64,000 nucleotides of DNA, from assembly GCF_000179915.2 (NCBI RefSeq), contig NC_014963.1, forward strand, positions 2,852,001 through 2,916,000, in the 5' to 3' direction. The notes under the pieces were generated by a model. The model was not told where the DNA came from. It saw only the letters and a program-made list of their open reading frames with translations, and did no database searches. Origin of the DNA: Terriglobus saanensis SP1PR4 (GTDB lineage Bacteria; Acidobacteriota; Terriglobia; Terriglobales; Acidobacteriaceae). Positions 5,278-50,851 of the stretch are shown one piece after another (within the stretch, counting starts at the first letter, position 1; every line of letters starts with the position of its first letter). The position numbers and the translations under genes were made by a program.

Positions 5278-6505
5278 TACGAATCGGCCTTCGGTACTGG
5301 AAGTGCGCCTTGGAGAAACCCTGGTGGGCACACTCACAAACCTGCCGAACGACCAGAACCTCTTCGTCTTCGATTCGGCGTATGTCTCCGATGAGAACCG
5401 TCCTGTCCTGAGTCTGAGCTTTTACGATGCCTACCGCAATCCGATCACGAATGTTCGCCCCGTGACGCGCAGGTTGCCGCCGTTCTTCTCCAATCTTCTC
5501 CCCGAAGGGGCGTTACGGCAGTTCATTGCCGAGCACGGCGAAGTCAACGCACAGCGAGAATTCTTCCTGCTCTGGCTGTTGGGAAACGATCTTCCTGGCG
5601 CTGTGACGGTGCGCGATGCGGAGGGCCGCACCCTGCCCCCGTCAGAAAAGAATCCCGGAGTGACCCGCGCGCGCGCAGGCCGGGATGTACTGCGATTCTC
5701 CTTGGCGGGCGTGCAGTTGAAACTCTCCGCCATCGGAAACCCCGACCGCCAGCTTTCCATCCCCGCCTCCAGCATGGGCGGCCATTGGATTGTCAAACTG
5801 CCGTCGCCCGCGTATCCGGGGCTACCGGAGAACGAGTTTTCCATGATGGAGTTTGCGCGTGCAATAGGGATTCAGGTGCCCGAAATCGGGTTGATTCCAC
5901 TGGACGAGATTCCCGGCATTCCGGAGCCCTGGCAGCAGTTCAAAGGAAACGCGTATTACATCCGGCGATTTGATCGTGGTTCTCATGGCAAACGCATCCA
6001 TATCGAGGACTTCAATCAGCTCTATGGCCAGTTCTCGGAAGCCAAATACAAGAACTACAGCTATACGAATATGGCTAACGATCTATGGCGGTTGACCGAT
6101 GAGACACAGTTCGCCGAGTTTATCCGTCGGCTGATCTTTAACGTGGCCATCGGCAACAACGATATGCACCTGAAGAACTGGTCCCTTATCTATCCGGACG
6201 GACATATGCCACTGCTAGCACCCGCCTATGATTTCGTATCGACCGTGCGCTACATCGCGGATGATCGGCTGGCGCTCTCGATTGCCAAGGAAAAATCTCC
6301 AACTGAATTAAACCTGGAGTTGTTGGAGCGCTTTGCTCGAAAAGCCCAGGTGCCGAGCAAATTGGTGCTCGATATCGCCAGAGAAACTGCGGACACGGTG
6401 ATGAGTCTCTGGCCTGCGATCCAGAAGGAACTACCGCTCGACCGGGCTACGCGCCATCAGATCACAGAGCATATGAAGTCCATTCCAATTCTCCGAGCCA
6501 GATAG
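5258..6505 (+). CDS. hipA: HipA-family serine/threonine kinase toxin
   Basis: The protein has 415 residues, a normal length for HipA. The N-terminal 1-110 region has the couple-HipA fold (LLPEGALRQFIAEHGEV). The kinase domain shows the ATP-loop block FSLAGVQLKLS (147-157), the Lys in IVKLPS (about 180), the catalytic IGNNDMHLKNWSL (298-310) and the metal-binding PAYDFVST (322-329). E. coli HipA phosphorylates glutamyl-tRNA synthetase and causes growth arrest; the target here is unknown. All catalytic motifs are present, so the toxin looks active. It is the first cargo after the att site, where it could stabilise the island by addiction. Confidence 0.92.
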   Translation: MPKTANNTNRPSVLEVRLGETLVGTLTNLPNDQNLFVFDSAYVSDENRPVLSLSFYDAYRNPITNVRPVTRRLPPFFSNLLPEGALRQFIAEHGEVNAQREFFLLWLLGNDLPGAVTVRDAEGRTLPPSEKNPGVTRARAGRDVLRFSLAGVQLKLSAIGNPDRQLSIPASSMGGHWIVKLPSPAYPGLPENEFSMMEFARAIGIQVPEIGLIPLDEIPGIPEPWQQFKGNAYYIRRFDRGSHGKRIHIEDFNQLYGQFSEAKYKNYSYTNMANDLWRLTDETQFAEFIRRLIFNVAIGNNDMHLKNWSLIYPDGHMPLLAPAYDFVSTVRYIADDRLALSIAKEKSPTELNLELLERFARKAQVPSKLVLDIARETADTVMSLWPAIQKELPLDRATRHQITEHMKSIPILRAR

Positions 6506-6652
6506 ACGCCCCCGAGTGCCCTCGTTAAGGAGCATTCCAAGCATCGTCTATTACGTTTTGGAATAGCCAAACACCCTTTTGTTATTGGACACCGCGAACT
6601 GAGCACCCTTACGTTTGCGCCATGCTGACACAGAGTCAGCGGAGGTGCAAAG

Positions 6653-18149: not shown

Positions 18150-18406
18150 ATGGCACAGACGCACTACCTTCTTGATGCACACGAAGCTGCACAAATCCTT
18201 CGGATGGACAGGCGAACGCTGGTTCGCTGGGCACGTCTCGGTCAAGTCCCGGCCCATCCAATGGGAGAGGGCAAGCGAAAGCTCTGGCGTTTTGTAAACA
18301 TGAGTTGTTGCAGTGGGTGGAAGCTCGCGCAATCAGCTCGGAACGGCGACCACCAACGAGTACCATAGAGACAGCCATCAACGCTCATGCTAGGAGAACA
18401 GCATGA
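18150..18406 (+). pseudogene. Excisionase-like MerR-fold HTH protein, frameshifted
   Basis: The N-terminal frame (MAQTHYLLDAHEAAQILRMD, then RRTLVRWARLGQVPAHPMGE) is a MerR/excisionase-type winged HTH (HTH_17). After LWRF the sense continues in another frame: HELLQWVEARAISSERRPP to NAHARRTA, ending in TGA at 18404-18406, which overlaps the integrase ATG (18403) as ATGA. A single T missing from the run at 18290-18293 would restore one 85-codon gene. The overlap with int and the fold suggest a directionality factor. As sequenced, only a 72-residue protein with a wrong tail would be made. Confidence 0.7.
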
Positions 18407-19662
18407 GCCGCTTTCAACAAGGAAGTCTCTTGAAACAAAAGCGCAAAAGCGGACCGGACGTATGGGTGTTTCGCTGGTATGACGAGACCAGTGGGAAGCG
18501 CACGTACAAGAAACGCAACCTCGGCACAGTGAAGGATCTTCCTTCACGCCGGGATGCGGAGCAGGCCGTGGCCGACTTTCGCGCAAACATCAACGTCGAG
18601 GTCAGGGTTCCGATTACGGTCTCTGAACTCATAGCCCACTACCGCAAACACGAGTTGACTGAGGACAAGAAAGCATTCGCCACGATTGCATCGACCTCGA
18701 TCTATCTGACCAATCACATCGCTCCGAAGTGGGGTGAGAAGTGGTTATCGGATGTCCGAACCGTGGAAGTTGAAGAGTGGCTGCACTCTCTGCCATACGC
18801 TCCAGCGACAAAAAGCAAAATCCGGAACATCATGTCCGCAGTGTTCAACCATGCCATCCGGTATGAGTGGACGCATCGCAACCCCATCACCAAGGTCCGG
18901 GCCTCGTCAAAGCGCCTGCGCGAACCGGATGTTCTGACACCTGGCGAATTTTCGGCCCTGGTGGAAGAACTGCCGCTGCGTGTAAAAGCGATGGTGATCC
19001 TGGCTGGTAGTACGGGGTTGCGGAGGTCGGAACTGGTTGCCCTGACATGGCGAGATGTCGATCCGCTGCTGATGCAGATCAACGTCCTTCGTTCATGTGT
19101 GCGGGGTCGCTTCGGAGATACGAAAACCGAGGCTAGCCGCAAACCCGTTCCACTGCACACGTCGGTCATTGAGTGCCTCGATGTCTGGAGGAAGGAATCC
19201 CGCTACAACGGCGAGGACGATTTTCTCTTTCCATCGGTTCGAAATGAGGGAAGAACTCCGGTCACTCCTGACATGATTCTGAAGAAGATCATTCGCCCCG
19301 CACTCGTCCGGGCGAAGATCACTGGGAAACGAATCGGATGGCATAGCTTCCGTCACTCTCTGGCGACGAACCTAAGAGCGGCTGGAGCGGACCTGAAGAC
19401 AGCCCAGGAGCTCCTGCGTCACGCGAACTCGCGGATCACCCTCGATATCTACACGCGGGCGATCTCTGCGAACAAACGTGAGGCTAACAACAAAGTCATG
19501 GAGATGGTGATTGAGGCCAGCAAGACCAGGCTTTCAGCACCCTCGCCAGCACCCTCGCGACGGGAGCCTCACCTATTAGAAGGCAGAAAAAAAGGTGCCG
19601 GAGACTCTCAGCACCCTTCAGCACCCTCGCGGGCTACTACTGATCTTGTCACTGTGCCATAA
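18403..19662 (+). CDS. int: Tyrosine integrase of the tRNA-Asp island
   Basis: The 419-residue site-specific recombinase has, in order, a basic N-terminal arm-binding region (SLLKQKRKSGPDVWVFRWYD), a core-binding SAM-like domain (about 75-160) and a catalytic domain with TGLRRSELVALTWRD (Arg), DTKTEASRKPVPL (Lys hairpin), WHSFRHSLATNL (His-x-x-Arg) and LLRHANSRITLDIYTR (His, Tyr). All catalytic residues are present. The C-terminal 40 residues are Pro/Ser/Arg-rich with repeated SAPS motifs encoded by repeated AGCACCCTCGC units. It ends 22 bases from the 3' end of tRNA-Asp, its presumed attachment site. Confidence 0.95.
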   Translation: MSRFQQGSLLKQKRKSGPDVWVFRWYDETSGKRTYKKRNLGTVKDLPSRRDAEQAVADFRANINVEVRVPITVSELIAHYRKHELTEDKKAFATIASTSIYLTNHIAPKWGEKWLSDVRTVEVEEWLHSLPYAPATKSKIRNIMSAVFNHAIRYEWTHRNPITKVRASSKRLREPDVLTPGEFSALVEELPLRVKAMVILAGSTGLRRSELVALTWRDVDPLLMQINVLRSCVRGRFGDTKTEASRKPVPLHTSVIECLDVWRKESRYNGEDDFLFPSVRNEGRTPVTPDMILKKIIRPALVRAKITGKRIGWHSFRHSLATNLRAAGADLKTAQELLRHANSRITLDIYTRAISANKREANNKVMEMVIEASKTRLSAPSPAPSRREPHLLEGRKKGAGDSQHPSAPSRATTDLVTVP

Positions 19663-19684
19663 ACCTTTTATTTTCTTTGGTTTA

Positions 19685-20086
<402 letters not shown>

Positions 20087-39383: not shown

Positions 39384-39800
39384 TTAGGCGCGTGGGGTCT
39401 GTTGCTTTGCAAAGGCTTCCGCGAAGCCCTGCAAGCGCAGGTTGTTGTCCCACTGCTTGGCGAATCGCTCGTGCTGATCGTGCAAGCTGGTGAGGTACAC
39501 GTAGTGGTCGCGGACGATGGTGCGGCTCCACTGCTCCACCCCGAGGTAGTCATTGCGGTAATAGAAAGGGTTCAGGTGCGCCCCTCCCGCAAGGCCAAGC
39601 TCGAAACACATCTCCGGGTCGCGCATGAGGTCGCCGTTCCGTTCGCCGTAGTGACAGACAGAGAGGACGGGAAGCCCACACGGGCCGGATTCGTCAGTCG
39701 CCTCGATCACCAACGCCATATAGGGCGGGTTCTCGATCTTGAGGGATAAGCCGTGGTGCCACCCTCCGGCCTGTTTGAGGATTGCGAGGATGGTTTTCAT
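39384..39800 (-). CDS. DUF6908-like conjugative-element protein
   Basis: The 138-residue protein starts MKTILAILKQAGGWHHGLSL and has LSVCHYGERNGDLMRDPEMC, then NPFYYRNDYLGVEQW. The HY..NGDLM.DPEM and YYRNDYLG blocks match small proteins found on mobilisable elements, which I believe are grouped as DUF6908; their function is unknown. Its start codon shares a base with the stop of ardC (TAATG), so the two are translationally coupled. parB follows after 88 bases. Confidence 0.7.
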   Translation of the reverse strand: MKTILAILKQAGGWHHGLSLKIENPPYMALVIEATDESGPCGLPVLSVCHYGERNGDLMRDPEMCFELGLAGGAHLNPFYYRNDYLGVEQWSRTIVRDHYVYLTSLHDQHERFAKQWDNNLRLQGFAEAFAKQQTPRA

Positions 39801-40693
39801 TACGCCACCCGTGCCAGTTCTGCATCGGGCATCGTCTCTTCGACTACGGACGATTCCAACGCGGCAAGGATGACAGCGGAGGTCTGCTGGATGACTTCAA
39901 GCGATTCGGCCAGTAACGATGCGTTGCCGTGGTACAGGTGGATATAGTCAGCGGATGCGCTGCCCGTCTCCAGCCCTACGGCTTTGCCGATGACAAACGC
40001 GATAGCTTCCGCCTCCGTCTCACGTACCGTCTTGGTGGTTGCCGTGCGCCGTTCGGCCTTGTGCAACATCTCATGTGCGAGCTCGTGAACAAGCGTCGAA
40101 AACTCCTCGGCCTTCGACTGTCCGGGGAGGATGGCGATGCGTCCGCCGTAGCTCATGCCAAGCGCGGGCGCGATGCGCTCGGTAAAGACAAGCTCGATGC
40201 CCTGACGCTTGATGAAGGAAACAAGGCGGTCGCGGTTCTCCCCTACATCGCCGCTAATCTCGCGCATGGCCGGAAGCTTTGCACCTTCGGTCTGCGTGAC
40301 ATCGAAGACATACGCCGAACGAAAGCCAACCAATACAGGCACATTCTGTTTGGTGATGTCCTTCTCGGCCTCTTCCTTCTTCTTGCGCTGGATGCCGACG
40401 ATGGGGGCAAGGATGCGGATGCCTTTCTCGCCCTTCTTCACGGAGCGGCCTAGCTCCTTCCACTTCCAGAACCCGGCTACTCTGGTCGCGTCGGGCTTCT
40501 GCCGTGCAATCTCCAGAATGTTTCCAAGGCTGTAGTTATGAAATCGGCTCATCGCGTTCAGATAAGCCGTGAGTGCATCGCTGTGTCCCGCCTCTAGCTG
40601 CTCGATGAGGCTTTGGACGTTGGCGGCGATTACTTCTTTCGCCGTCTTGGGCTGCTGCTGGTCGGTGTTGTTGGTGGTGGCTGTGCTGCTCAT
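39800..40693 (-). CDS. ardC: ArdC-like antirestriction protein
   Basis: Start 40693 has AAGGAG upstream; an in-frame ATG at 40729 lies in the operator. The 297 residues combine an N-terminal ssDNA-binding ArdC domain (YLNAMSRFHNYSLGNILEIA, FWKWKELGRSVKKGEKGIRI) with a C-terminal metallopeptidase-like domain (FSTLVHELAHEMLHKAERRT: HExxH). ArdC proteins of IncW plasmids protect incoming single-stranded DNA from restriction in the recipient. This fits its place in a leading-region-like block of a conjugative element. Confidence 0.88.
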   Translation of the reverse strand: MSSTATTNNTDQQQPKTAKEVIAANVQSLIEQLEAGHSDALTAYLNAMSRFHNYSLGNILEIARQKPDATRVAGFWKWKELGRSVKKGEKGIRILAPIVGIQRKKKEEAEKDITKQNVPVLVGFRSAYVFDVTQTEGAKLPAMREISGDVGENRDRLVSFIKRQGIELVFTERIAPALGMSYGGRIAILPGQSKAEEFSTLVHELAHEMLHKAERRTATTKTVRETEAEAIAFVIGKAVGLETGSASADYIHLYHGNASLLAESLEVIQQTSAVILAALESSVVEETMPDAELARVA

Positions 40694-40727
40694 GGTGTTG
40701 TCTCCTTTGCGGTTGCTTTTGCTTTTC

Positions 40728-40745
40728 ATGCCATGCGTGGCATGT
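40728..40745 (-). promoter_or_regulatory. Palindrome upstream of ardC
   Basis: CATGCCA-TGCG-TGGCATG is a perfect 7-bp inverted repeat with a 4-bp centre, 35 bp before the ardC start. It is probably an operator for the ardC-DUF6908-parB unit, possibly bound by the element's own ParB. Confidence 0.5.
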
Positions 40746-41200
40746 ACCTACATGCCGAACGCCTCCTGGCGAAGGCGGGGCGGCAAGGCGCAAGGGGAGG
40801 GGTATCTCCCATCCGGAGCAAAGCGGAGGACGAGCGAAGCGAAGGTCTGCACAAGCGCAGCGCGGAAGACTGTTGGGAAACCCCTTGCGCCGCGCCAGGG
40901 CAGCGCCCTCAGCGAAGGTTTGGTTGCCTTATCCGTGCGCATTAGCGCACATGAATTTCAGGGTCGCGTTGCGGCAGGAACAGGCCGCTGTGGTGGGTGG
41001 CGGAAGACGCGTGCGGCTGGAGACAGGCGAGGAGCGTAGCTCCTCCCTCAAGCTGCGTTTATGAACAAACAAGACTGGAGAGAGTCGTTGAATCTTGTTG
41101 TTCGGGAATCCGAATGAGGGAGACTACACTGTTTCACTACGCATTAATTCTTCTGGAAAGACCTTCGGATCGGCTTACGCGAAGGGAGCGATTGCAAACG
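40746..41200. other. Divergent intergenic region between ardC and the TrlF-like gene
   Basis: GC-rich, with several short inverted repeats, including CTTGCGCCGCGCCAGGGC-type stems at about 40885-40912. The TrlF-like reading frame stays open back to 40997, but without a ribosome site or conserved sequence. No separate gene is seen. Confidence 0.4.
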
Positions 41201-44170
41201 ATGATTGATCGCGGTTCAGAGTGGAGACGTTGGGAGCCTCATATCCATGCTCCCGGCACTGTGTTGAACAATCAGTTTGGCGGCTCCGATCCATGGGAGA
41301 CCTACCTTCAAACGCTCGAAGCTCTCACGCCCAAGATCGAAGCGATTGGCGTAACTGACTACTACATCACGGAAACTTACGAAGAGGTTGTTCGACACCA
41401 TCGACTGGGACGCCTTCCAAATGTTCAGCTCATTTTTCCAAACGTGGAGATGCGTCTCGACGTAGCAGCCCGGACTGGATTCGTAAATGTGCATTTAGTG
41501 GTGAGCCCCGAAGATCCGAATCACCTGACGGAACTGCGACGCATCCTAAGCCGGCTACAGTTCAACGCGCATGGAGACCGCTACGACTGTACGCGGGAGG
41601 AACTGATTCGACTGGGACGACGGGCCGATCCGTCGATTGCGGATGACAGCGCCGCGCTTCGTCATGGCGCCACGCAGTTCAAGGTCAATTTCGCGCGGCT
41701 GAAAGATATTCTAGGAGAGAGCGACTGGGCGAAGCACAACATCGTCGTTGCGGTCGCAGGCGGAGCCGATGACGGCACGTCTGGCGTCCGGCAAGCTGCG
41801 GACGCAACGATCCGTCAGGAGATCGAACGGTTCGCCCATGTGATCTTTTCGAGCAGTGCCGCACAGCGGGAGTTCTGGCTTGGCCTACGGATAAAAACTG
41901 TAGAAGAGTTACGTAAGGACTACAACGGATGTAAGCCGTGTCTACATGGCAGTGATGCACATGATGCGACCTTGGTCGGGCAACCTATGCTGGATCGGTT
42001 CTCGTGGATCAAGGGAGCGCTCACCTTCGATGCACTGAGACAGGCTTGCATTGACCCAGATGGTAGAGCCTATGTCGGAAGCGCTCCCCCGCTCCATGCA
42101 CTCCCGTCGCAAGTGGTTTCTGAAGTAACACTCACGGATGCTCCATGGGCAACTACGCCGACGATACCGTTGAATCCCGGTCTGGTCGCGATCATCGGTG
42201 CTCGTGGGTCTGGAAAAACAGCTCTTGCAGACATGATTGCGGCTGGCTGCGATGCAATCACTGGATGGAGCGGAGACGCGAATGTAAGTCCATCTTTTCT
42301 AGTACGCGCTCGTCCGCTCTTGGATCAAGCAAAAGTGAGGCTGACGTGGGGTGGAGGCGACACAGTTTCGCGCTGTCTGGATGGTAGCGATGCGAACGGG
42401 CCGTTCTCGTATCCACGAGCGCGTTATCTTTCGCAACAGTTTGTTGAGGAGCTGTGTTCTTCGCAAGGTGCTTCGGAAGGGCTGATTCAGGAAGTCGAAC
42501 GAGTTATCTTCGAGGCACACCGCGAGGACCAGCGTGACGGGGCAACGGATTTCCAAGAGCTACTTCAAAGTCGGACGATGCGCTTTCAGCAGGCGCAGCG
42601 TCGCGAAGTGGAAGCGATAGCCGCCATCTCCGACCGAATTGCCGTTGAACTGGAAAAGGAAAGTGTAGTCGCTGGGCTGGTGCTACAAACGGGACAGAAA
42701 CGCGAGTTGATTAAAAACTATACCGCTGACCTTGCGAAACTGATCGTCAAAGGATCGGAAGCACAGGCCAACCGGCATGCACAATTGAACCAGGTTGCGC
42801 AGGGGCTAACGACGAAAATCCAGAACTTTCAGAACCAACGTCGCATCTTCCTTACGCTCCAGGATGAAGTAACCAACATGCGGTCGGCGAAGTCCCCCGA
42901 GATGTTGCGGCAAGTCCAGGCCCGGTATCCCACCAGTGGCCTGAGTGCGCCGCAGTGGGACGACTTTCTTCTTATCTATAAGGGAGATGTCGATAAGGCA
43001 CTGGCCGGATACATTACTTGGGCAGAGCAAGAGGTAGCCAAATTACAGGGCGTCCTGCCACCGCCCGGTGACCCGAATGCGCCCTTGATTGCTGATACCG
43101 ACGACTTATCGACGGTGCAGTTAGCGCGGCTTAAAGCCGAAATGACTCGGCTGGAGGCGATCATCGGGGCTGATGTGGCAGTGCGACAGCAATACACCGC
43201 CTTGTCGGGTCGTATCTCTCAGGAAACCACCTTGCTGAAGACCTTGGAAGAGAAGTTGACGGATGCTCAAGCTGCGGCGGGACGCCGGAAGACGCTACAA
43301 ACGGAGCGTGAAGCCTCGTATGGCCAAGTCATCGGAGCGATCATCAGTGAACAGGCAGAGTTGACGACCTTGTATGCGCCGCTGCTGACCCGTTTGCGGA
43401 GTTCGTCAGGAACACTGCGCAAGCTCGGCTTCGCGGTCACCCGTCTCGTGGATGCGGGCGCCTGGGGTGAATTTGCCGAAGAAAAGCTCATTGACCGTCG
43501 GAAGAGCGGACCGTTCAGCGGGCGTGGGTCGCTCATCAAGCTCGCCGATGCAGAGTTGAAGCCAGCTTGGGAAAGAGGGGATGCCTCCCAGATTCAAGCG
43601 GCAATGAACACCTTTGTTACGAAGTATTGGAAGGACTTTCTCGCGCATGCCCCCTATGCGCCAGCGCAAAAGATTGAGTATCGCGCGTGGCTCAAGCAGT
43701 TTGCGCATTGGCTGTATAGCACAGACCACATCAGTGTTCGCTACGAGATCGAGTACGACAGAGTAGATATCCGCAAACTATCTCCAGGAACGCGGGGCAT
43801 TGTCTTGTTGTTGCTATATCTGGCCCTGGATGAGGGGGACGACAGACCCCTTATCATCGACCAACCAGAGGAAAATCTCGATCCCAAGTCCGTCTTCGAT
43901 GAGTTGGTCGGCTTGTTTGTTGAGGCCAAGAGGAAGCGCCAAGTCATCATCGTCACACACAATGCGAACCTTGTGGTCAACACCGATGCGGATCAAATCA
44001 TCATTGCCGATGCAGGTCCACATCCGGCGGGTGGATTACCTCCGATCACCTATATCGCTGGGGGCTTGGAAGATGGAGCAATTCGTAAGTCGGTCTGTGA
44101 CATCCTCGAAGGCGGCGAGATGGCATTCCGGGAGCGGGCCCGGCGTCTTCGGGTGCGCCTTGAACGCTAG
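41201..44170 (+). CDS. TrlF-like PHP-domain plus SMC-like AAA ATPase
   Basis: The 989-residue protein from ATG 41201 starts in a PHP domain: WEPHIHAPGT (His14, His16), EAIGVTDYY and CLHGSDAHD (249-255) are metal-binding motifs of a PHP phosphoesterase. An ABC/SMC-like ATPase follows: Walker A IIGARGSGKTALA (332-344), a long helical middle (about 450-760) and Walker B LIIDQPEENLD (884-894) with VTHNANLV. This matches the family annotated as TrlF AAA-like ATPases, often found in defence islands. An ATP-gated nuclease or phosphoesterase is inferred. Codon use is ordinary for the element. It faces the ACP-MazG operon tail to tail. Confidence 0.85.
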   Translation: MIDRGSEWRRWEPHIHAPGTVLNNQFGGSDPWETYLQTLEALTPKIEAIGVTDYYITETYEEVVRHHRLGRLPNVQLIFPNVEMRLDVAARTGFVNVHLVVSPEDPNHLTELRRILSRLQFNAHGDRYDCTREELIRLGRRADPSIADDSAALRHGATQFKVNFARLKDILGESDWAKHNIVVAVAGGADDGTSGVRQAADATIRQEIERFAHVIFSSSAAQREFWLGLRIKTVEELRKDYNGCKPCLHGSDAHDATLVGQPMLDRFSWIKGALTFDALRQACIDPDGRAYVGSAPPLHALPSQVVSEVTLTDAPWATTPTIPLNPGLVAIIGARGSGKTALADMIAAGCDAITGWSGDANVSPSFLVRARPLLDQAKVRLTWGGGDTVSRCLDGSDANGPFSYPRARYLSQQFVEELCSSQGASEGLIQEVERVIFEAHREDQRDGATDFQELLQSRTMRFQQAQRREVEAIAAISDRIAVELEKESVVAGLVLQTGQKRELIKNYTADLAKLIVKGSEAQANRHAQLNQVAQGLTTKIQNFQNQRRIFLTLQDEVTNMRSAKSPEMLRQVQARYPTSGLSAPQWDDFLLIYKGDVDKALAGYITWAEQEVAKLQGVLPPPGDPNAPLIADTDDLSTVQLARLKAEMTRLEAIIGADVAVRQQYTALSGRISQETTLLKTLEEKLTDAQAAAGRRKTLQTEREASYGQVIGAIISEQAELTTLYAPLLTRLRSSSGTLRKLGFAVTRLVDAGAWGEFAEEKLIDRRKSGPFSGRGSLIKLADAELKPAWERGDASQIQAAMNTFVTKYWKDFLAHAPYAPAQKIEYRAWLKQFAHWLYSTDHISVRYEIEYDRVDIRKLSPGTRGIVLLLLYLALDEGDDRPLIIDQPEENLDPKSVFDELVGLFVEAKRKRQVIIVTHNANLVVNTDADQIIIADAGPHPAGGLPPITYIAGGLEDGAIRKSVCDILEGGEMAFRERARRLRVRLER

Positions 44171-44224
44171 TTAATTGGGTTCGGCTTGGTATCTCGCAAC
44201 GGACGAAGATCCGCTAAGGTGCGT

Positions 44225-45115
44225 CTATCGGTCCGGTGTAATCTGCAGTTCGGTTACAGAGAACTCCACACTACGGGTATCTCTGTCGAAGCGAACCCAG
44301 CCGCCACCGTGTGTTTGTACTTTGCGCCAGATTTCGAACGTCTTCAGTATCGTCTGTTCCCACTCGTAAAGGGAACGCTTTCCTACTTCAAACGATGACG
44401 TGAGTTCGTGACATAGATCGAGTAACTGCCAATCGAGTACCTTGATCTCATCCAGATAGGTGTGACGAGTTGCATACGCGAACACAAGTGCCACTAAGGC
44501 TTCGTCGATGACGATGGCACGTCCGCCGTCCTCGACCTCGTCAGTCTCTTTGTCGCTCTTCCGCTTACGTTTCAGCAGCGCTCGCACAACGGGTGACCAA
44601 CCTAAGAGGGCGACGCAGGTCATATGGAAGATGTCGTGGAAGCGATACCCGTCGGGGACATAGGAATTGTCGTTAAGCTTCGCACCGAGTCTCTCACCGT
44701 TGATCAACACTTCAACCTTCGAGATATCATCCTCCACCGAGGCTACGAACTGGGCAGTGAACTTGCGCGGAAGCTGTTCGTTCGGAGGAAAATGCTCATC
44801 GAAATCGACCCAGTCATCCTCGCCTGTTGGCAGCCAGCGTGATGTGGTCTTCTCAATATTTTGCACAGCTATTTCATGAAGCGAGAGCCCTTCGAGACTC
44901 GCAATAGCGGTGAGATACCACAAGATGTCTCCGAGCTCTTCCTTTACCCTGTCCTGGAATCCGGTGAAGCGATCACCATCGCGAAGCCGCTTCTTGTATA
45001 GGGTATGGATGGAGCCTGTTTCGCCAGCCAACCCGTAGAGCGCGACTGTGAGTGGGTTGTGTGATCCGAGCCTGTTTGTATCCATAGCTCGCTTCTGGTA
45101 GTCCTCAAAGCGCAT
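44225..45115 (-). CDS. MazG-like NTP pyrophosphohydrolase with C-terminal domain
   Basis: The 296-residue protein has an N-terminal all-alpha MazG domain: LYGLAGETGSIHTLYKKRLR, then VKEELGDILWYLTAIASLEG, giving the metal site ExxD. The first pair is E-T-G-S instead of ExxE, so one metal ligand is replaced by Ser. The rest matches the MazG C-terminal extension (YVPDGYRFHDIFHMTCVALL; AIVIDEALVALVFAYA). It should hydrolyse nucleoside triphosphates to monophosphates and pyrophosphate. Its start overlaps the stop of the thymidylate-synthase-like gene by 11 bp. Last gene of the operon. Confidence 0.85.
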   Translation of the reverse strand: MRFEDYQKRAMDTNRLGSHNPLTVALYGLAGETGSIHTLYKKRLRDGDRFTGFQDRVKEELGDILWYLTAIASLEGLSLHEIAVQNIEKTTSRWLPTGEDDWVDFDEHFPPNEQLPRKFTAQFVASVEDDISKVEVLINGERLGAKLNDNSYVPDGYRFHDIFHMTCVALLGWSPVVRALLKRKRKSDKETDEVEDGGRAIVIDEALVALVFAYATRHTYLDEIKVLDWQLLDLCHELTSSFEVGKRSLYEWEQTILKTFEIWRKVQTHGGGWVRFDRDTRSVEFSVTELQITPDR

Positions 45116-45839
45116 CGATGTCTCCCTTGAACGGCAGGATCAAGTTCGGTTTGTCCAGCTTTGCAACAAGTGCAACACAAGTGAGCGCGGTCAGCTCAAG
45201 CCCCATTTCTCTGGCCATAAATTGGCCAAGATTGAGCAGACCCAGGTAATTACCGTAGGCCCGCGCCCAAAGATAGTGCATGGGATAGAGCGCCGAGATG
45301 CGCAGACCATTGTCACCTTCAGGCAGGAAGGCGACCTGCTGCATACACGGAAAACCTTGAAACGGCGTTGCATTCAGATCGACTGACGGTGCCAGGATGG
45401 CACACTGGAGCGCGGACCTCCTTTTGGTGCCTCCGCGATATGCAGAGATTACGAAATCCAGTTGATTGAAAGCTCCGTTCCCTGGATGAGGGTATGCAAT
45501 GAGGCGCTGAAAATAAGTTCCCCGCCGGTTCTGTTGGATCGCATTAATCCGCGGCCAGACTCGCAAGTATCGCTCGAAGAACTTGTGACGAGGCTCATCG
45601 GGTTTTATGAGCGACGAGGGGAAGATGGTATTCGCCACGGTCGCCACCGAAAAATTCCCGTTGCTCTCCAACGCTTCGTCGAGCTTGCTCCGGATTGGCC
45701 CGTCCTCAACAGGTACTCCGCCCGCGAGGTTCTCCAGATTGACGACAAGGGTCGAGACTTCCTTGCGTGGACTCGCATTCGCGAGCGCGATGGCACGAAG
45801 CCACGCTCGCGACAGGGATTGTTCAGTAATCTCAGGCAT
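45105..45839 (-). CDS. Thymidylate-synthase-like enzyme
   Basis: From ATG 45839, overlapping the peptidase stop by 8 bp, the protein has 244 residues. The core follows the ThyA fold in order: RRGTYFQRL (105-113), NQLDFVI (125-131), KRRSA (139-143, the phosphate-binding Arg pair), GFPCMQQVAF (162-171, Cys165 at the catalytic position) and the ALYPMHYLWARAYGNYLGL block (183-201) where ThyA has its RSxD and Asn motifs. The altered last block suggests a different substrate from dUMP. It may methylate, hydroxymethylate or otherwise modify a pyrimidine nucleotide. Assignment is by pattern, not by search. Confidence 0.65.
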   Translation of the reverse strand: MPEITEQSLSRAWLRAIALANASPRKEVSTLVVNLENLAGGVPVEDGPIRSKLDEALESNGNFSVATVANTIFPSSLIKPDEPRHKFFERYLRVWPRINAIQQNRRGTYFQRLIAYPHPGNGAFNQLDFVISAYRGGTKRRSALQCAILAPSVDLNATPFQGFPCMQQVAFLPEGDNGLRISALYPMHYLWARAYGNYLGLLNLGQFMAREMGLELTALTCVALVAKLDKPNLILPFKGDIDAL

Positions 45840-46671
45840 CAATCGGTTCCTCAAGATATCGATATTGATACATCCCAACATAGTCGGTCTTTGCGATGTT
45901 GAGATTGACGGTGGCGCTCCCGAAGACGGTTGCGGATATCTGGCCGACGCTGGTCGCAATGGCGCACCCGTCACCTATGTCGAAATGATCCAAGGATGGA
46001 GACACGAGACCTGTCACCACATCCCCAACTTGAAGATGCACATTCGCCCCGTTCCACCAGCCGGCTAGAGGCCATAGTTCTTTGCGACCGGTCCACGATA
46101 CGGACGGAACCTGTCTCCGCTTGATCTGCTGGGGACTCTTCAAGGTGAGTTGATGAAGCTGAGCGCTGTCGATGAGTCCAAGTGTCCAACGCGTATGCTG
46201 GATCAGGGTCGTATAGCCGACACCTAGCCATGAGGCCACGGCATAGTATTGTTCCGGATTGGCATCAGCCGGTGTCATGCCCAAACTCCGAAACCCGCTC
46301 AGGACGGCCCGCTTCGGCATGAGCAGGTGGCGCGCGAACGTGTCGGCCATCGTCTCTTCCGTCGAATTACTCTCCATGTCCTCGATCTTCTCGTCGAGAT
46401 GCGCTCCGTGGCCGAGCAGAAAGTGTCCGAGTTCGTGAGCTGCCGTGAAGTGCTGGTGACCAGAAGGCCGAAGGGCCGAGATATTAATCGAGCCGAGAAG
46501 GCCGTCGTTCAAGTACAGACCGTCGAGAGTGGAGATATTGGTGAAGCGAAGCGCCAAGCCGTACTTGGAGATCAGCTCATACACATCGCACGGTGAATCC
46601 AGAGAAAATCCGAAGCGCTGTCGTGCTGACAACGCACGACGGGCCACCTCGGTCTTGAGCTTCGTGAGCAT
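45832..46671 (-). CDS. ImmA/IrrE-type metallopeptidase
   Basis: The 279-residue protein has an M78 peptidase domain in its first half: HFTAAHELGHFLLGHGAHLD with HELGH at 79-83, and EETMADTFARHLLMPK with the third ligand (Glu/Asp). The C-terminal half (about 130-279) is unassigned and beta-rich. Such peptidases cleave or inactivate a partner XRE repressor in response to DNA damage or phage. The XRE gene is 6 bp upstream, so they form the classic pair. The stop overlaps the start of the thymidylate-synthase-like gene. Confidence 0.9.
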   Translation of the reverse strand: MLTKLKTEVARRALSARQRFGFSLDSPCDVYELISKYGLALRFTNISTLDGLYLNDGLLGSINISALRPSGHQHFTAAHELGHFLLGHGAHLDEKIEDMESNSTEETMADTFARHLLMPKRAVLSGFRSLGMTPADANPEQYYAVASWLGVGYTTLIQHTRWTLGLIDSAQLHQLTLKSPQQIKRRQVPSVSWTGRKELWPLAGWWNGANVHLQVGDVVTGLVSPSLDHFDIGDGCAIATSVGQISATVFGSATVNLNIAKTDYVGMYQYRYLEEPIDA

Positions 46672-46677
46672 ATTGGT

Positions 46678-47001
46678 TTACTCGCGTCGGAAAGAATCTA
46701 TGACTCGCATTACGGTTTCAAGGTCTTTAGCTTTGAGCGATTCCAGGTTTCTTGCTGCCATTTTCAATTGTTCGTTCGACTGCACGGGCTCTCCTAGAAG
46801 CCATGCGGTGGACACGTGGTACAGAGAAGCGAAGTTCTTGAGCTCACCGGCAGAGACTTTGCGACCCTCGGTTTCGATCTCGGAAATTGCCGGGCGATGA
46901 AGCCCTAGCAGCTTGGCAGCCTGCGCTTGTGAAAGCCCTGCATCCTCCCGCGCTTGCCGGAGCCTCTGGCCGAGCCCTGGAAGATCGGTATTTTCAGGCA
47001 T
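46678..47001 (-). CDS. XRE-family regulator paired with the ImmA/IrrE peptidase
   Basis: The 107-residue protein has an XRE HTH at residues 9-65: LGQRLRQAREDAGLSQAQAA, KLLGLHRPAISEIETEGRKV, then LKNFASLYHVSTAWLLGE. A short helical tail ends in RVIDSFRRE. It probably represses this operon and is the peptidase's substrate. It overlaps the acyl carrier protein gene by 8 bp. Confidence 0.9.
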   Translation of the reverse strand: MPENTDLPGLGQRLRQAREDAGLSQAQAAKLLGLHRPAISEIETEGRKVSAGELKNFASLYHVSTAWLLGEPVQSNEQLKMAARNLESLKAKDLETVMRVIDSFRRE

Positions 47002-47296
47002 GTTGTTTTCCTCCCTTCTGGAGTGTTGCCCATATCGCTGATGCGGTTTCCTGAATCGAGCGGAACTTCTTGGGTTTTACGTCGACGTAGAAGATGTCAT
47101 CCTCAACATGAATTCCGGTCTCCTCTTCCAGTTCTGTGAGGATTTCGAGTGCCGACAGACTATCGAAGCCCTTAATGTCTTTGAACGGGACAGTCTTCGA
47201 TTCCACAACTTCTGCTGGCGTTTCAGGATTACCTTCCTTGATGAGTTTGATCAGAAGAGCTTCGATATCCGCCGTCGAATTGATCGCGATTTGCAT
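46994..47296 (-). CDS. Acyl-carrier-protein-like protein
   Basis: From ATG 47296 the product has 100 residues with a PP-binding fold. The KGFDSLSALEILTELEEETG block (42-61) holds the Ser46 expected to carry 4'-phosphopantetheine (DSL motif), and ETGIHVEDDIFYVDVKPKKF is the following helix III region. Housekeeping ACP is shorter (about 78 residues) and lies with fab genes; this one is in a regulator-peptidase-nucleotide enzyme operon, so it is a dedicated carrier. Its cargo and partner enzyme are not evident; no ketosynthase or ligase is nearby. Confidence 0.8.
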   Translation of the reverse strand: MQIAINSTADIEALLIKLIKEGNPETPAEVVESKTVPFKDIKGFDSLSALEILTELEEETGIHVEDDIFYVDVKPKKFRSIQETASAIWATLQKGGKQHA

Positions 47297-47391
47297 TGTC
47301 CGAAAATCCTTCCGTGATGTAGGAAAATCGTACCATCGAGGATGCAAAGAGTCAAACGGTATTTCGCCGTTCCGTGCAGTAGGTTCGTTTT

Positions 47392-47952
47392 CTAAATCAC
47401 GAAGGGCTCTGCTTCGCCGTTGATGTACAAAGGATGCCTTGGGGAGCCATCAGCATTGAGCTTCAGGGCATGAAGTTTATGCCCATTGCCTCGCAACAGT
47501 GCGCATACGTCGAGGCCCCTCTGCCGCAGGGCTCGGTGGGGCTGGCCATAGGCAATAATGATTCTGCTCACGCGATAAGCCGTGGCCAAGATATGCCTAT
47601 CGTTTTCAGGCCCGACAGGATCAGGCGCGGCTAGAAGGTCGCGCGGATCGGTTGCTCGATAAGCGAAGGTGTTCGTCACATAAAGGCTGCCACCACCCCA
47701 TTTTCGAGCGAAGGCTTGGCATCGTGCCACCGTAGGGTCATCGACAGAGGTGTCTGCCGTAGAGGGATTCATCATCAGGAACATGAACGCGGGAAGATGA
47801 ATATTCCAAGTGCGTCGCAAGACGTAGCGGTATTGCTTTTGGTCGCCGCCGAATAAGGCCGCTCCTCTGACACCGAGGGCGAGCGAACGACGGACTTTGC
47901 CGCCTGGATCGTGCTGCACTGTGCGTTCCTCGAAGAATGTACGTTGTGGCAT
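47392..47952 (-). CDS. DUF1643-family protein
   Basis: The 186-residue protein has the DUF1643 pattern: WNIHLPAFMFLMMNPSTADT, then DDPTVARCQAFARKWGGGSL, YVTNTFAYRATDP, IIIAYGQPHR and HALKLNADGSPRHPLYI. The fold and activity are uncharacterised, although the conserved MNPS.A and G..GH blocks suggest a nucleotide- or nucleic-acid-processing enzyme. DUF1643 genes are common on plasmids and phages. It lies 95 bp upstream of the ACP gene on the same strand and may be the first gene of that operon or independent cargo. Confidence 0.85.
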   Translation of the reverse strand: MPQRTFFEERTVQHDPGGKVRRSLALGVRGAALFGGDQKQYRYVLRRTWNIHLPAFMFLMMNPSTADTSVDDPTVARCQAFARKWGGGSLYVTNTFAYRATDPRDLLAAPDPVGPENDRHILATAYRVSRIIIAYGQPHRALRQRGLDVCALLRGNGHKLHALKLNADGSPRHPLYINGEAEPFVI

Positions 47953-48064
47953 CGTTTCTCGATTTGATCCTTTAGTTTACGGGAAATTCTAGCCATCCGG
48001 GATCTCGGTCGACTCGGCAGAAGTGTCGCTCTTGATACCCTGAATAGCCCAGAACAGACTTAGG

Positions 48065-50851
48065 TCAGATTGCCAAACCAAGCCCAGGACCGGAATTGTT
48101 CGTGATGATCTTTCCTTGCTCTTTAAGAGCGCTCGGAACAGGAGGTTGTGCGCGTAGGACGTCCAGTGCCGAGGTCTTCGACGCATCGTGGCTCAAAGTC
48201 CGCGCGAGATTAACAGCATCGTTGGTGTAGATATGCGCATTGTGCGAGGCGCGAGAGACAGATACATATGCAAACCTGCTGTTTATCAATTCGGGATGAA
48301 CGCCAGTATCCATGTTCACCAGCACGCGTTCTGAAGTGAGGCCCTGTGAGCTATGCGAAGTCACGGCGTAGCCATGATCGAAGTGCCGCATCTCGTTCGC
48401 ATCGAAGCGCACAACTCTGTCTTTCGTGCCATCCATCCGGACGTTGAACTTTCGGTCGTCTCCGATGCTCTGGATGGTGCCGAGATCTCGATTGGCAACC
48501 TGCAAGTCCCTTTGAGGAGCCGTGAATTGGATTTTGTCTCCAATAGAAAATTCACGCTCGATCTGGCGGTAAGCGGCGATGCCACGCAACCGTGCCGGGT
48601 CGTAGCTCACTTGTTGGCCGTCTTCTTTCCGCACGGTAACAAGGTTTTCAGCCGGATTCGTCGTGACGACCTGGGCATAGCTTTTGGCCTCGATGCCATG
48701 CTCTTTGCTGCCGCGAACGTAATGGAGAACGTCCCCGGGCTGATAGCGTGCAGCCCACTCGCGGTCGGCTCCGGTCATATCGTTGCGCGGTATAAGCACG
48801 CGCATGGAATGGTCTTTGCCGTCCACGACGCCAAGGGTCTGCAACTTCTGCCGCACCGCCTGGTTGATGGCGCGGCGCGAGGCGTTGTCGGGTGAGACGA
48901 TAAGTGTGTTTTCAGGATGCGAGGCATACTCTTTCGCGATGGCCGCGACACGTTGCTCCGGGTCAACGATTTCGGTAATGCGTCCCTGCTGCGAAAGCAT
49001 CTCGACACCGAGAGCGGTTTCATTGTTGGACAGATGCTCGACGGCTTTCAGCAGTCCAGCGTCCTTCTGGCGCATGATCTGGTCAAGCTGCGCGGTTCTC
49101 ATGCCCGCCTCTTGCAACTGCTCGAAGGGCTTGCCCGCATCGACACCCTGATGCTGGCGCGTGTCGCCAATCAGCAGAACCTTATCCTGCGGAGCAATCT
49201 TATTCAGGAAGTCGCGCATCTGTTGCGTCGATGCCAGAGAGGATTCATCAACCATATAAAGGTGCTTATTTGCGGGATCGCTGGCGGCCTGCAGACCGCC
49301 GCCCGCGAGGAAACGCTGCAAGGTGTCAGCCCTAAGACCAGCGTCACGGAGCTGCTTCGCAGCACGCGATGTCGGTGCAAAACCTTCGACGGCGTAGCCA
49401 TTCTGCTCGGCTCCTTCGCGTATGATCGCCAAAACTGAGGTCTTACCCGATCCGGCCCGCCCCTGTAGTCCTTGCACCCGGTCATACGATGTAAGAACTT
49501 CCTCGACAACTCTCTTTTGAGCGGGATTGAAATGAGGGCGCGAGTCCACGAGCGGGACTGCGCTCTCAATCGCCATGATCTGCGGCGCTCGGCTCCGTCC
49601 GTCCTGAACCTTCTGAACGATTTCATTTTCAGCCTTGATGGTCGCCGCGGTGGTGAACCTGCGCCCGGCATCATGCGCGTTTGCGAGAACTGCTTTGAAC
49701 TCGCCGGAGGCAACACGCGCCTCGAAGCTGGCGCGGACCTCCGGATAGGTCATCTCGCCCATGCCTCGACGCAACGCATCCACGTAGAGAGCACGTTCGT
49801 CTACGACGGCCTCACGCTCGAACCCTTTATCGCGGGCGAAGGTGACAGCCTCCCGTACTTGCTGGTGCCTTTCGTTTGGAAGGCGCTCTTGTGTCTGTTC
49901 CATCCGCCGCTGCCGCGCCTCGGCCACAACCCTGTCCGCCTGGTTGCCGAACTCGTCGGCAATCTGTTTATGCGCGGCCAGGACTTCATCGGGAGACAGG
50001 ATGACCTTCTTATCGCGGGTGTTGTGTGCCGCGATCTGCGCGGCCTCCGGGCCGGTGAAACCACTGCGGCTTAGCGCCTCTTCGATCTGCTGGCGGCGTG
50101 GGCTGGATGCCTCAAGGTAGTCCGCTGTGTAGCCCCTTATGTCTGGTGCGCCGCTCTTGCCCGCTTCGATTTCATAACCGAGATCGCGCAACTTGTACGT
50201 GAGGTGGGATTGATAGACGGCAGTAGCGAACTGCTGGCTTTCAAACAGAGAATGCGGCTGCAAGGCTCGCATATTGCCGCTGTCGCGTTCTGTCATATTG
50301 AACACGACGACATGGGTGTGGAGCTGAGGAGCAGCGTAGCCATCTACCGGGCGGGCGGTGTCATGCTCGAACTTTGCGGCCGCAAGCTTTCCGGTCGTCT
50401 CGGCAGGATTGTTGCCGCCGATGCGGGCCTGCGTATACCGCTCCAACTCATTCAAAGCCACGTTTACGGCTTCACGGTGTGCTTCGCGCACGCGGTCATC
50501 GCCCCCGACAAGCGCGGTAAGAGAGATGGACTTCGGGGCGGAAAAGGTAGCGTCCCATCCGGCACGGTGCTCGACGGGAGATACCACTTTCCCATCCGCG
50601 TTCTTGTATTCATGAACGACGTGATGCGAAACCAACTGCTTGCCGGTCTCCGGGTGCTGGCCTTCGGATAGACGGGTAAACTCCGCTGCGCCTACGGGTC
50701 CCGACAAACCAAATTCATCGGCCAGCTTTCCATGCCATTCACCCTGTATGGTGTCGCCTTGCTTCCAGTAGTTCTGCTCGGCGGCGGTGAACTCCTTGGC
50801 GTGGTAGGTCTGTGCCTGGCTGGCGGAGAGTGGCTTCGAGATATTCAGCAT
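48065..50851 (-). CDS. MobF relaxase (TrwC/TraI type)
   Basis: The 928-residue protein joins an N-terminal TrwC relaxase domain (about 1-300) to a superfamily I helicase. The relaxase has FEHDTARPVDGYAAPQLHTH (161-180) with the HxH metal site, AGWDATFSAPKSIS and candidate nucleophile tyrosines near the N-terminus (Tyr16, Tyr28). The helicase has QGRAGSGKTSVLAI (Walker A), VDESSLAS, GDTRQHQGVDAG and VTSHSSQGLT. It should nick oriT and unwind the transferred strand. The N-terminus begins MLNISKP as in other MobF proteins. The coupling protein gene is 9 bp upstream. Confidence 0.95.
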   Translation of the reverse strand: MLNISKPLSASQAQTYHAKEFTAAEQNYWKQGDTIQGEWHGKLADEFGLSGPVGAAEFTRLSEGQHPETGKQLVSHHVVHEYKNADGKVVSPVEHRAGWDATFSAPKSISLTALVGGDDRVREAHREAVNVALNELERYTQARIGGNNPAETTGKLAAAKFEHDTARPVDGYAAPQLHTHVVVFNMTERDSGNMRALQPHSLFESQQFATAVYQSHLTYKLRDLGYEIEAGKSGAPDIRGYTADYLEASSPRRQQIEEALSRSGFTGPEAAQIAAHNTRDKKVILSPDEVLAAHKQIADEFGNQADRVVAEARQRRMEQTQERLPNERHQQVREAVTFARDKGFEREAVVDERALYVDALRRGMGEMTYPEVRASFEARVASGEFKAVLANAHDAGRRFTTAATIKAENEIVQKVQDGRSRAPQIMAIESAVPLVDSRPHFNPAQKRVVEEVLTSYDRVQGLQGRAGSGKTSVLAIIREGAEQNGYAVEGFAPTSRAAKQLRDAGLRADTLQRFLAGGGLQAASDPANKHLYMVDESSLASTQQMRDFLNKIAPQDKVLLIGDTRQHQGVDAGKPFEQLQEAGMRTAQLDQIMRQKDAGLLKAVEHLSNNETALGVEMLSQQGRITEIVDPEQRVAAIAKEYASHPENTLIVSPDNASRRAINQAVRQKLQTLGVVDGKDHSMRVLIPRNDMTGADREWAARYQPGDVLHYVRGSKEHGIEAKSYAQVVTTNPAENLVTVRKEDGQQVSYDPARLRGIAAYRQIEREFSIGDKIQFTAPQRDLQVANRDLGTIQSIGDDRKFNVRMDGTKDRVVRFDANEMRHFDHGYAVTSHSSQGLTSERVLVNMDTGVHPELINSRFAYVSVSRASHNAHIYTNDAVNLARTLSHDASKTSALDVLRAQPPVPSALKEQGKIITNNSGPGLGLAI

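Follow-up and report, generated by a model that had tools for sequence, protein, structure and literature searches.

The 64,000-nucleotide stretch of Terriglobus saanensis SP1PR4 analysed here (NC_014963.1, positions 2,852,001 to 2,916,000 of the forward strand; hereafter the window) carries an operon of five genes at 44225-47296 on the minus strand. They encode, in order of transcription, an acyl carrier protein (ACP), an XRE-family repressor, an ImmA/IrrE metallopeptidase, an enzyme of thymidylate synthase (TS) fold, called TS-like below, and a MazG-type nucleoside triphosphate pyrophosphohydrolase with a MazG_C domain. The operon is real and widespread, it is mobile, and it is probably switchable. 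We put forward with moderate confidence the reading that it is a self-contained, mobile and inducible immune module that is switched by its repressor and protease and that modifies nucleotides. In this role it may act by placing an ACP-borne group on deoxyuridine monophosphate (dUMP). A preliminary description of the same DNA had proposed a nucleotide-modifying or nucleotide-depleting defence of seven genes, triggered by proteolysis of the repressor. The unit, the type of switch and the nucleotide theme of that proposal hold up and the enzyme set favours modifying over depleting, but the seven-gene scope does not stand.

The conserved unit

The gene for ACP (PF00550) lies first in the operon, at 46994-47296, followed on the same minus strand by those for the XRE repressor (46678-47001; PF13560/PF01381), the ImmA/IrrE (M78) peptidase (45832-46671; PF06114), the TS-like enzyme (45105-45839; recognised by AlphaFold2 (AF2) model and Foldseek) and MazG (44225-45115; PF18722 with 261 bits, PF03819 with 25 bits). 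Overlaps of 8 bp (ACP/XRE), 8 bp (ImmA/TS) and 11 bp (TS/MazG) had been described correctly, and a 6-bp gap separates XRE from ImmA. The TS-like protein most likely starts at ATG 45839, replacing the listed GTG 45974, which falls within immA, and ACP most likely starts at ATG 47296, replacing the listed TTG 47347. The ATG of ACP is preferred because the promoter and an operator-like sequence sit between the two codons.

Homologous loci (numbered L001 onwards) were collected with the TS-like gene as the sole search bait, and ACP, XRE and ImmA were counted beside it. A tblastn search of plasmids with the TS-like protein matched 20 records; in all nine that were opened a helix-turn-helix gene and an ImmA gene lie upstream of TS. 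The genome scan, by TS-like patterns alone, kept the best 80 of 176 relatives, and the genome-locus counts below refer to these. Three further loci came from virus contigs. Counts are based on the 73 of 92 non-window loci with at least 2.4 kb of upstream and at least 3.5 kb of downstream flank, a gene being scored as present when it lies no more than 8 kb away; L001, L014, L015 and L016 were excluded. The profiles were built from the window and nine plasmid loci, these nine seeds being among the 73, and those for acpS, ThyA, TrlF, DUF1643 and SIR2 rest on one sequence each.

The linkage of the operon genes is far above chance. Profile searches found XRE and ImmA in 73/73 loci and ACP in 72/73, the miss being L012, where the profile overlooked an ACP-like open reading frame (ORF) at 6345-6638. 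ACP, XRE and ImmA are on the same strand as the TS-like gene, upstream of it and within 2.6 kb, in 72 of the 73. With one locus for each 70%-identity TS cluster the counts are 51/52 for ACP and 52/52 for both XRE and ImmA. MazG_C was found in 52/73 loci and a protein of the HMUDK_hel family, of the type of the 5-hydroxymethyldeoxyuridine (5-hmdU) kinases, in 68/73. Further companions are an AcpS-type gene (36/73), a dCTP-deaminase-like (DCD) gene (20/73), a second TS (16/73), DUF1643 (6/73), UDG (4/73) and a C1 peptidase (4/73). Among the 62 genome loci that did not serve as seeds, ACP, XRE, ImmA and HMUDK are each present in all 62, MazG in 42 and AcpS in 34. ACP, XRE, ImmA and TS thus stay neighbours in 72/73 loci, with MazG_C joining them in 52, and the phosphopantetheine carrier that the preliminary description had called unexpected is a core member. 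When 744 further ORFs lying no more than 7 kb away were clustered, nine families emerged, each present in four to six loci; from their sequences these are an integrase, an AbiEii-like protein and its likely partner, a radical-SAM protein, two DNA polymerase III subunits, a dTMP kinase, a transposase and a dUTPase.

If the operon acted by depletion, MazG would hydrolyse deoxynucleoside triphosphates (dNTPs) and starve the phage, the other genes being accessory. The MazG_C protein does keep the acidic residues of MazG in the alignment. However, MazG is absent from 21/73 loci in which ACP, XRE, ImmA and TS remain, and ACP and the TS-fold enzyme would have no evident role, which makes depletion very unlikely.

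The relatives span 13 phylum-level groups. The TS tree requires 24 changes of phylum label over these 13 groups, the minimum possible being 12, which fits transfer without proving it. The TS-like gene is patchy within the class of the window's host, with 10/399 genomes positive. It was also considered as a phage gene and rejected as such, with no match in 50,697 phage records; the three virus contigs do carry it. The patchy spread speaks against a further alternative, in which the operon is a DNA-damage response apart from phages that supplies or edits thymidine nucleotides. Control of the CapP/PprI type responds to DNA damage (PMC13373217, PMC10904395) and several relatives lie on large chromosome contigs. 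Further points against this reading are that plasmids, a phage-like contig and an integrated conjugative element carry the operon and that MazG_C keeps Thoeris-type company (see below). We give it the least credence of the readings considered.

Promoter palindrome and regulatory pair

The ACP promoter of most relatives carries the palindrome GTAAGA-N3-TCTTAC. It was sought in 86 loci for which 700 bp of sequence in front of XRE is available, the window and L109 among them; the best match at 150-700 bp upstream of XRE was exact in 53, had one mismatch in 15 and two in 6, which makes 74/86. In 860 background segments from the same loci there was one exact match and five with up to two mismatches. 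When each 70%-identity cluster is represented by one locus, 30/60 are exact and 49/60 have no more than two mismatches. A search of 1.37 Mb gave 61 exact palindromes, for 56 of which the nearest gene is ACP and for four XRE. The remaining one (L079:12881), the sole exact copy away from ACP and XRE, lies 40 bp before a MazG ORF apart from the operon and suggests a small regulon. The middle bases are A or T in 60 of the 61.

The palindrome lies in a promoter context. At least five of the six bases of TTGACA occur 8-19 nt upstream of 48/74 sites, as compared with 80/1480 random places, and the commonest spacing is 17 (20/48). In the window TTGACT (47350-47355, minus strand) lies 17 nt upstream of TACGAT (47327-47332), forming the likely -35 and -10 boxes of the operon promoter, and the palindrome variant GTACGATTTTCCTAC at 47319-47333, on the same strand, covers the -10 box. 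No other place in the window matches with two mismatches or fewer, and the 15-mer occurs exactly once in its own genome. Conservation of the site makes it a likely operator for XRE.

The view that regulator and ImmA form a switch, already part of the preliminary description, gains from the best PADLOC matches, capH for XRE (59 bits) and capP for ImmA (61 bits), together with the conserved palindrome. The metal site of ImmA is intact, with H79, H83 and E106 in 90/90 aligned sequences, E80 in 89/90 and the HExxH motif preserved. In the CapH/CapP pair and in PprI/DdrO the protease is activated by single-stranded DNA (ssDNA; PMC13373217, PMC10904395).

Enzymes of the operon and its companions

The phosphopantetheine serine of ACP is conserved in 88/88 aligned homologues, with the DSL-type motif FDSLSA in the window. 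The AcpS-like genes near 36 of the 73 operons are often on the opposite strand, and the one scanned matches PF01648. The TS-like protein has weak sequence homology (TIGR03283, 44 bits) and no Pfam match at E 0.1. Its TS fold is clear from the AF2 model (pLDDT 96), for which Foldseek listed the phage dCMP hydroxylase AfhB, thymidylate synthases and MilA at E 7e-9 to 1e-7 and TM scores of 0.5-0.7.

Cys210, Tyr154, Arg157 and Asn242 of the TS-like protein (numbering of the 289-residue form) are present in 93/93 aligned sequences. When the profile is aligned with that of the second-TS rows (probability 64%, E 7e-5), the cysteine falls on the TS nucleophile and the asparagine on the uracil-reading asparagine of TS, which we take to be Asn177 of the Escherichia coli enzyme. 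The Arg-Ser-x-Asp (RSxD) stretch, which presumably holds phosphate and folate in TS, is not kept; the window has YPMHY and the family consensus is FYATQQ, and in this the protein differs from ThyA proper. The arginine of this segment is retained in the Streptomyces and C1/UDG rows L005-L010 (YRSH or YRNH), and no row of the TS-like alignment has RSxD. The second TS (16/73, for example L019, L026 and L047) is more canonical, with PCN and RSND, and in 15 of the 16 loci there is no MazG_C gene nearby.

These features allow a specific chemistry to be proposed. A TS-fold enzyme lacking the folate and phosphate segment would activate dUMP through its cysteine and couple a group borne by a dedicated holo-ACP to C5, yielding an antiviral nucleotide, under a repressor/protease switch whose operator is constant across many bacterial phyla. 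We consider this proposal in full rather unlikely, and less weight is placed on the ACP-dependent C5 chemistry because the arginine is retained in L005-L010.

The partner set points to deoxyuridine or thymidine nucleotides. The nucleotide chemistry suspected in the preliminary description is backed by HMUDK, the dCTP-deaminase-like protein, the second TS and UDG; all four long forms of HMUDK scanned, of about 550-590 residues, are fused to thymidylate kinase. Matches to HMUDK_hel also occur in 473 phage records, for example NC_047851.1, and in 9 of the 473 the match covers 80% or more of the query, so that the family is common to bacterial proteins and phage hypermodification proteins. UDG and HMUDK gave a probability of 0.1% in a profile comparison.

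Such a family could also serve self-marking, the module hypermodifying thymines in the DNA of the element or its host against restriction, as some phages do. HMUDK_hel (PF18723) is named after the phage 5-hmdU DNA kinases, whose pathway is outlined in PMC6449724, and a carrier protein might bring in the side group. Protective marks would be expected to be constitutive, yet XRE and ImmA genes occur in every one of the 73 loci, and the window is without HMUDK. We regard self-marking as improbable.

Defence context of MazG_C

MazG_C also occurs apart from the operon. Nine plasmid records without a TS-like match (of 34 with MazG) and five MazG_C regions in genomes of the host's class (12 genomes have a MazG_C match; the others are TS loci or the window) were examined, and in 12 of these 14 loci no TS-like gene was detected. 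Nine of the 12 have a pair of TIR and Nmad2-type genes according to our own profiles, six have UDG, four HMUDK and three patatin. Five of the nine positive loci (L106, L108, L133, L134 and L136) seeded the TIR and Nmad2 profiles; among the non-seed loci 4/7 are positive, L131 and L132 with TIR scores of just 37-38 bits. The Pfam names of the pair were confirmed in L106 and L136. L108 in addition has ThsA (603 bits) and L106 a CBASS-type phospholipase, and L107 and L140 have neither a TIR nor an Nmad2-type gene.

MazG_C with HMUDK or UDG was seen beside a ThsB-type TIR/Nmad2 pair in L106, L108, L131-L134, L136, L137 and L139, at times with ThsA, SIR2 or patatin. Such loci form a Thoeris-like nucleotide system in their own right. 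MazG_C plus a thymidine-base protein thus appears to be a common core that is combined with either of two fronts, one of which resembles Thoeris. The defence hypothesis of the preliminary description is made likely by this company of TIR, ThsA, Nmad2 and patatin genes, from which we infer the immune role itself. The DefensePredictor study (PMC13092281) counts 5-hmdU kinase and TS among the domains that it newly validated in anti-phage systems of E. coli, and it predicts a defence role for the domains MazG and MazG-C.

The same loci could also fit a surveillance role, in which MazG_C and HMUDK or UDG, and likewise the TS-like/ACP pair, detect unusual thymidine nucleotides or hypermodified bases of phages and trigger an effector, the operon having no product of its own. 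The pairing of MazG_C and HMUDK or UDG with TIR, Nmad2, ThsA and patatin genes would suit such a sensor, and so would the many phage records with an HMUDK match. The UDG-like glycosylase Brig1 acts in defence by cutting out a modified base of the phage (PMC11078745). For a sensor, however, it is not obvious why the carrier should keep its serine or why an ACP synthase, a dCTP-deaminase-like protein or a second TS should be needed, and an effector gene is absent from the window's operon. Surveillance is judged unlikely.

Proposed mechanism and points against it

If the operon is an inducible nucleotide-modifying module, its course may be pictured as follows. At rest XRE would sit on the palindrome over the -10 box and silence the whole operon, xre included; the site is taken from its conservation. 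Damage or infection would be the trigger, ssDNA probably being sensed by ImmA as in CapP and PprI. ImmA would then cleave XRE, as suggested by its family, and release the promoter, and the induced enzymes would change deoxyuridine or thymidine nucleotides. The cysteine of the TS-fold enzyme may attack C6 of a uracil nucleotide so that a group can be placed on C5, the phosphopantetheinylated ACP carrying or supplying that group. MazG_C could remove the competing or normal dNTP, and in most relatives HMUDK, in some fused to thymidylate kinase, would process the product further. The product may be a nucleotide or base harmful to the replication of phages, or it may feed a signalling effector.

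Several observations weigh against this reading. A search of the window's genome for HMUDK gave no match at E 10, and the centre of the pathway may differ there; nor did G274, G214 or the 15.6-kb record of L012 yield one above the cut-off. L012 sits elsewhere in the TS tree than the window, and therefore the HMUDK-less form arose more than once or HMUDK is encoded elsewhere. No classical effector was found in the window's operon. The window's copy of the palindrome has two mismatches, and at up to two mismatches the palindrome is missing in 12/86 loci, including both Streptomyces loci and three of the four C1/UDG plasmid loci. That XRE regulates and ImmA cuts is assumed by analogy with CapH/CapP and PprI/DdrO. 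The profile of the TS-like protein matches the solved chains of the TS superfamily weakly, the best at E 0.005. Finally, the TIR/Nmad2 pair was found in only 3/102 TS-like loci (L041, L051 and L111), so that the link to defence is mainly through MazG_C and HMUDK/UDG. A metallophosphoesterase gene was found in 4/102 TS-like loci.

Relation to known systems

The operon resembles CapH/CapP in its adjacent XRE and M78 peptidase genes and in the PADLOC matches, and it has a conserved palindrome, a candidate operator, at its promoter. It differs in that the pair comes second and third behind an ACP gene and in that the remaining genes belong to neither CBASS nor any other named system but encode nucleotide enzymes. 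The thymidine hypermodification pathways of the phages M6, ViI and phiW-14 (5-hmdU DNA kinase) likewise combine an enzyme of the TS superfamily with HMUDK_hel, as do most of the relatives, and have companions that handle dUTP and dTTP, whereas the present loci are bacterial and add XRE/ImmA, ACP and ACP synthase, and HMUDK was not found in the window's genome. Thoeris is approached through the MazG_C and UDG or HMUDK pairs that adjoin ThsB-type TIR genes elsewhere, with ThsA in L108; in contrast, neither TIR nor ThsA was found among the nine window proteins scanned (39800-50851), and the front is ACP-XRE-ImmA-TS. The TS-like protein has the fold and the catalytic cysteine of MilA, a CMP 5-hydroxymethylase, and of the phage enzyme AfhB, but only 12-17% identity to them in the Foldseek rows. 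Compared with TS proper it keeps the uracil-reading asparagine, and the RSxD segment is not kept in the window.

The DefensePredictor systems with TS, dNMP kinase and 5-hmdU kinase domains are similar in that TS, 5-hmdU kinase and MazG/MazG-C are named in the main text of PMC13092281, and ACP, ImmA and DUF1643 are not mentioned in that main text. A literature search gave no paper that we recognised as describing this gene set, part of which Iyer 2013 and Burroughs 2015 may cover. A nucleotide-centred kind of defence has already been predicted, and what sets this operon apart is its carrier protein together with the TS-fold enzyme and the palindrome conserved at the promoter.

Should the immune module be as proposed, a phosphopantetheine carrier heading an inducible immune operon would tie the chemistry of acyl or aminoacyl carriers to defence against phages, and antiviral nucleotides of a new class may come of it. 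Whatever the function, it is unusual for a cis-regulatory element to be conserved at such depth: next to its likely repressor, the palindrome has an almost unchanged sequence in groups as far apart as Cyanobacteria, Bacteroidota and Acidobacteriota. GTAAGA-N3-TCTTAC followed by ACP, XRE and ImmA gives a simple tag for finding the system, and Thoeris-type TIR loci, MazG_C, Nmad2 and 5-hmdU-kinase proteins are joined in one testable network.

Relatives and neighbouring genes

The nearest relative of the window's operon is L109, from another genus of the same family, with TS 58-61% identical and 100/100 support. It has exactly ACP-XRE-ImmA-TS-MazG, without TrlF and without DUF1643, between genes that from their sequences are uvrB-like and 3-methyladenine-glycosylase-like. 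In the virus contig L012 the genes DUF1643, ACP-like ORF, XRE, ImmA, TS and MazG lie between terminase-like and portal-like genes, again read from sequence, and this resembles a cargo cluster. A papain-like C1 peptidase stands between ImmA and TS-like in L006, L008, L009, L010, L113, L114 and L116. The first four, all on plasmids, have UDG and not HMUDK; L113 and L114 have HMUDK, and the palindrome is also missing in L113, L114 and L116. L112, L138 and L140 look decayed, L112 being a decayed copy and L138 a remnant of an ACP-type locus in which the palindrome is still exact.

In the window the seven genes and their order are as first described, and all lie between the TrwC/MobF relaxase (48065-50851, minus strand; PF08751, NF041492) and ArdC (39800-40729, minus strand), which flanks the block on the side away from the relaxase. 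The minus-strand order is relaxase, DUF1643, ACP, XRE, ImmA, TS-like and MazG. No RNA element reached the gathering score in 40500-48500. The DUF1643 gene (47392-47952, minus strand; PF07799, 159 bits) lies upstream of the operon's own promoter and is an occasional associate of the operon. DUF1643 was considered as a UDG-like substitute for HMUDK because of a look-alike motif, and this found no support, a profile comparison with the four variant-B UDGs giving a probability of 0.1%. Its model (pLDDT 70, from only 8 sequences) had no Foldseek match at E<=0.001 and no UDG among the 50 matches listed.

The TrlF-family ATPase gene (41201-44170, plus strand; NF045780, 679 bits) faces the operon and is an independent neighbour. 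It was rejected as a member of the system: TrlF occurs in 0/73 loci, and 1068 plasmid records match it, 200 of them over 80% or more of its length, as against 20 with TS-like. The idea of a seven-gene island fails on these counts and on the rarity of DUF1643. On plasmids TrlF is common cargo, 782 of the 1068 records being conjugative plasmids.

The window is part of a single contig of 5.1 Mb. The surroundings of the operon form a conjugative element with type IV secretion, comprising the relaxase, a coupling protein, a T2SSE-type ATPase, VirB8-, TrbL/VirB6-, TrbI- and CagX-type genes, ParB and ArdC. A tyrosine integrase gene (18403-19662, plus strand; PF00589) adjoins a tRNA-Asp gene (19685-19761, minus strand; ARAGORN), and the two together (18403-19761) are likely one end of the integrated element.

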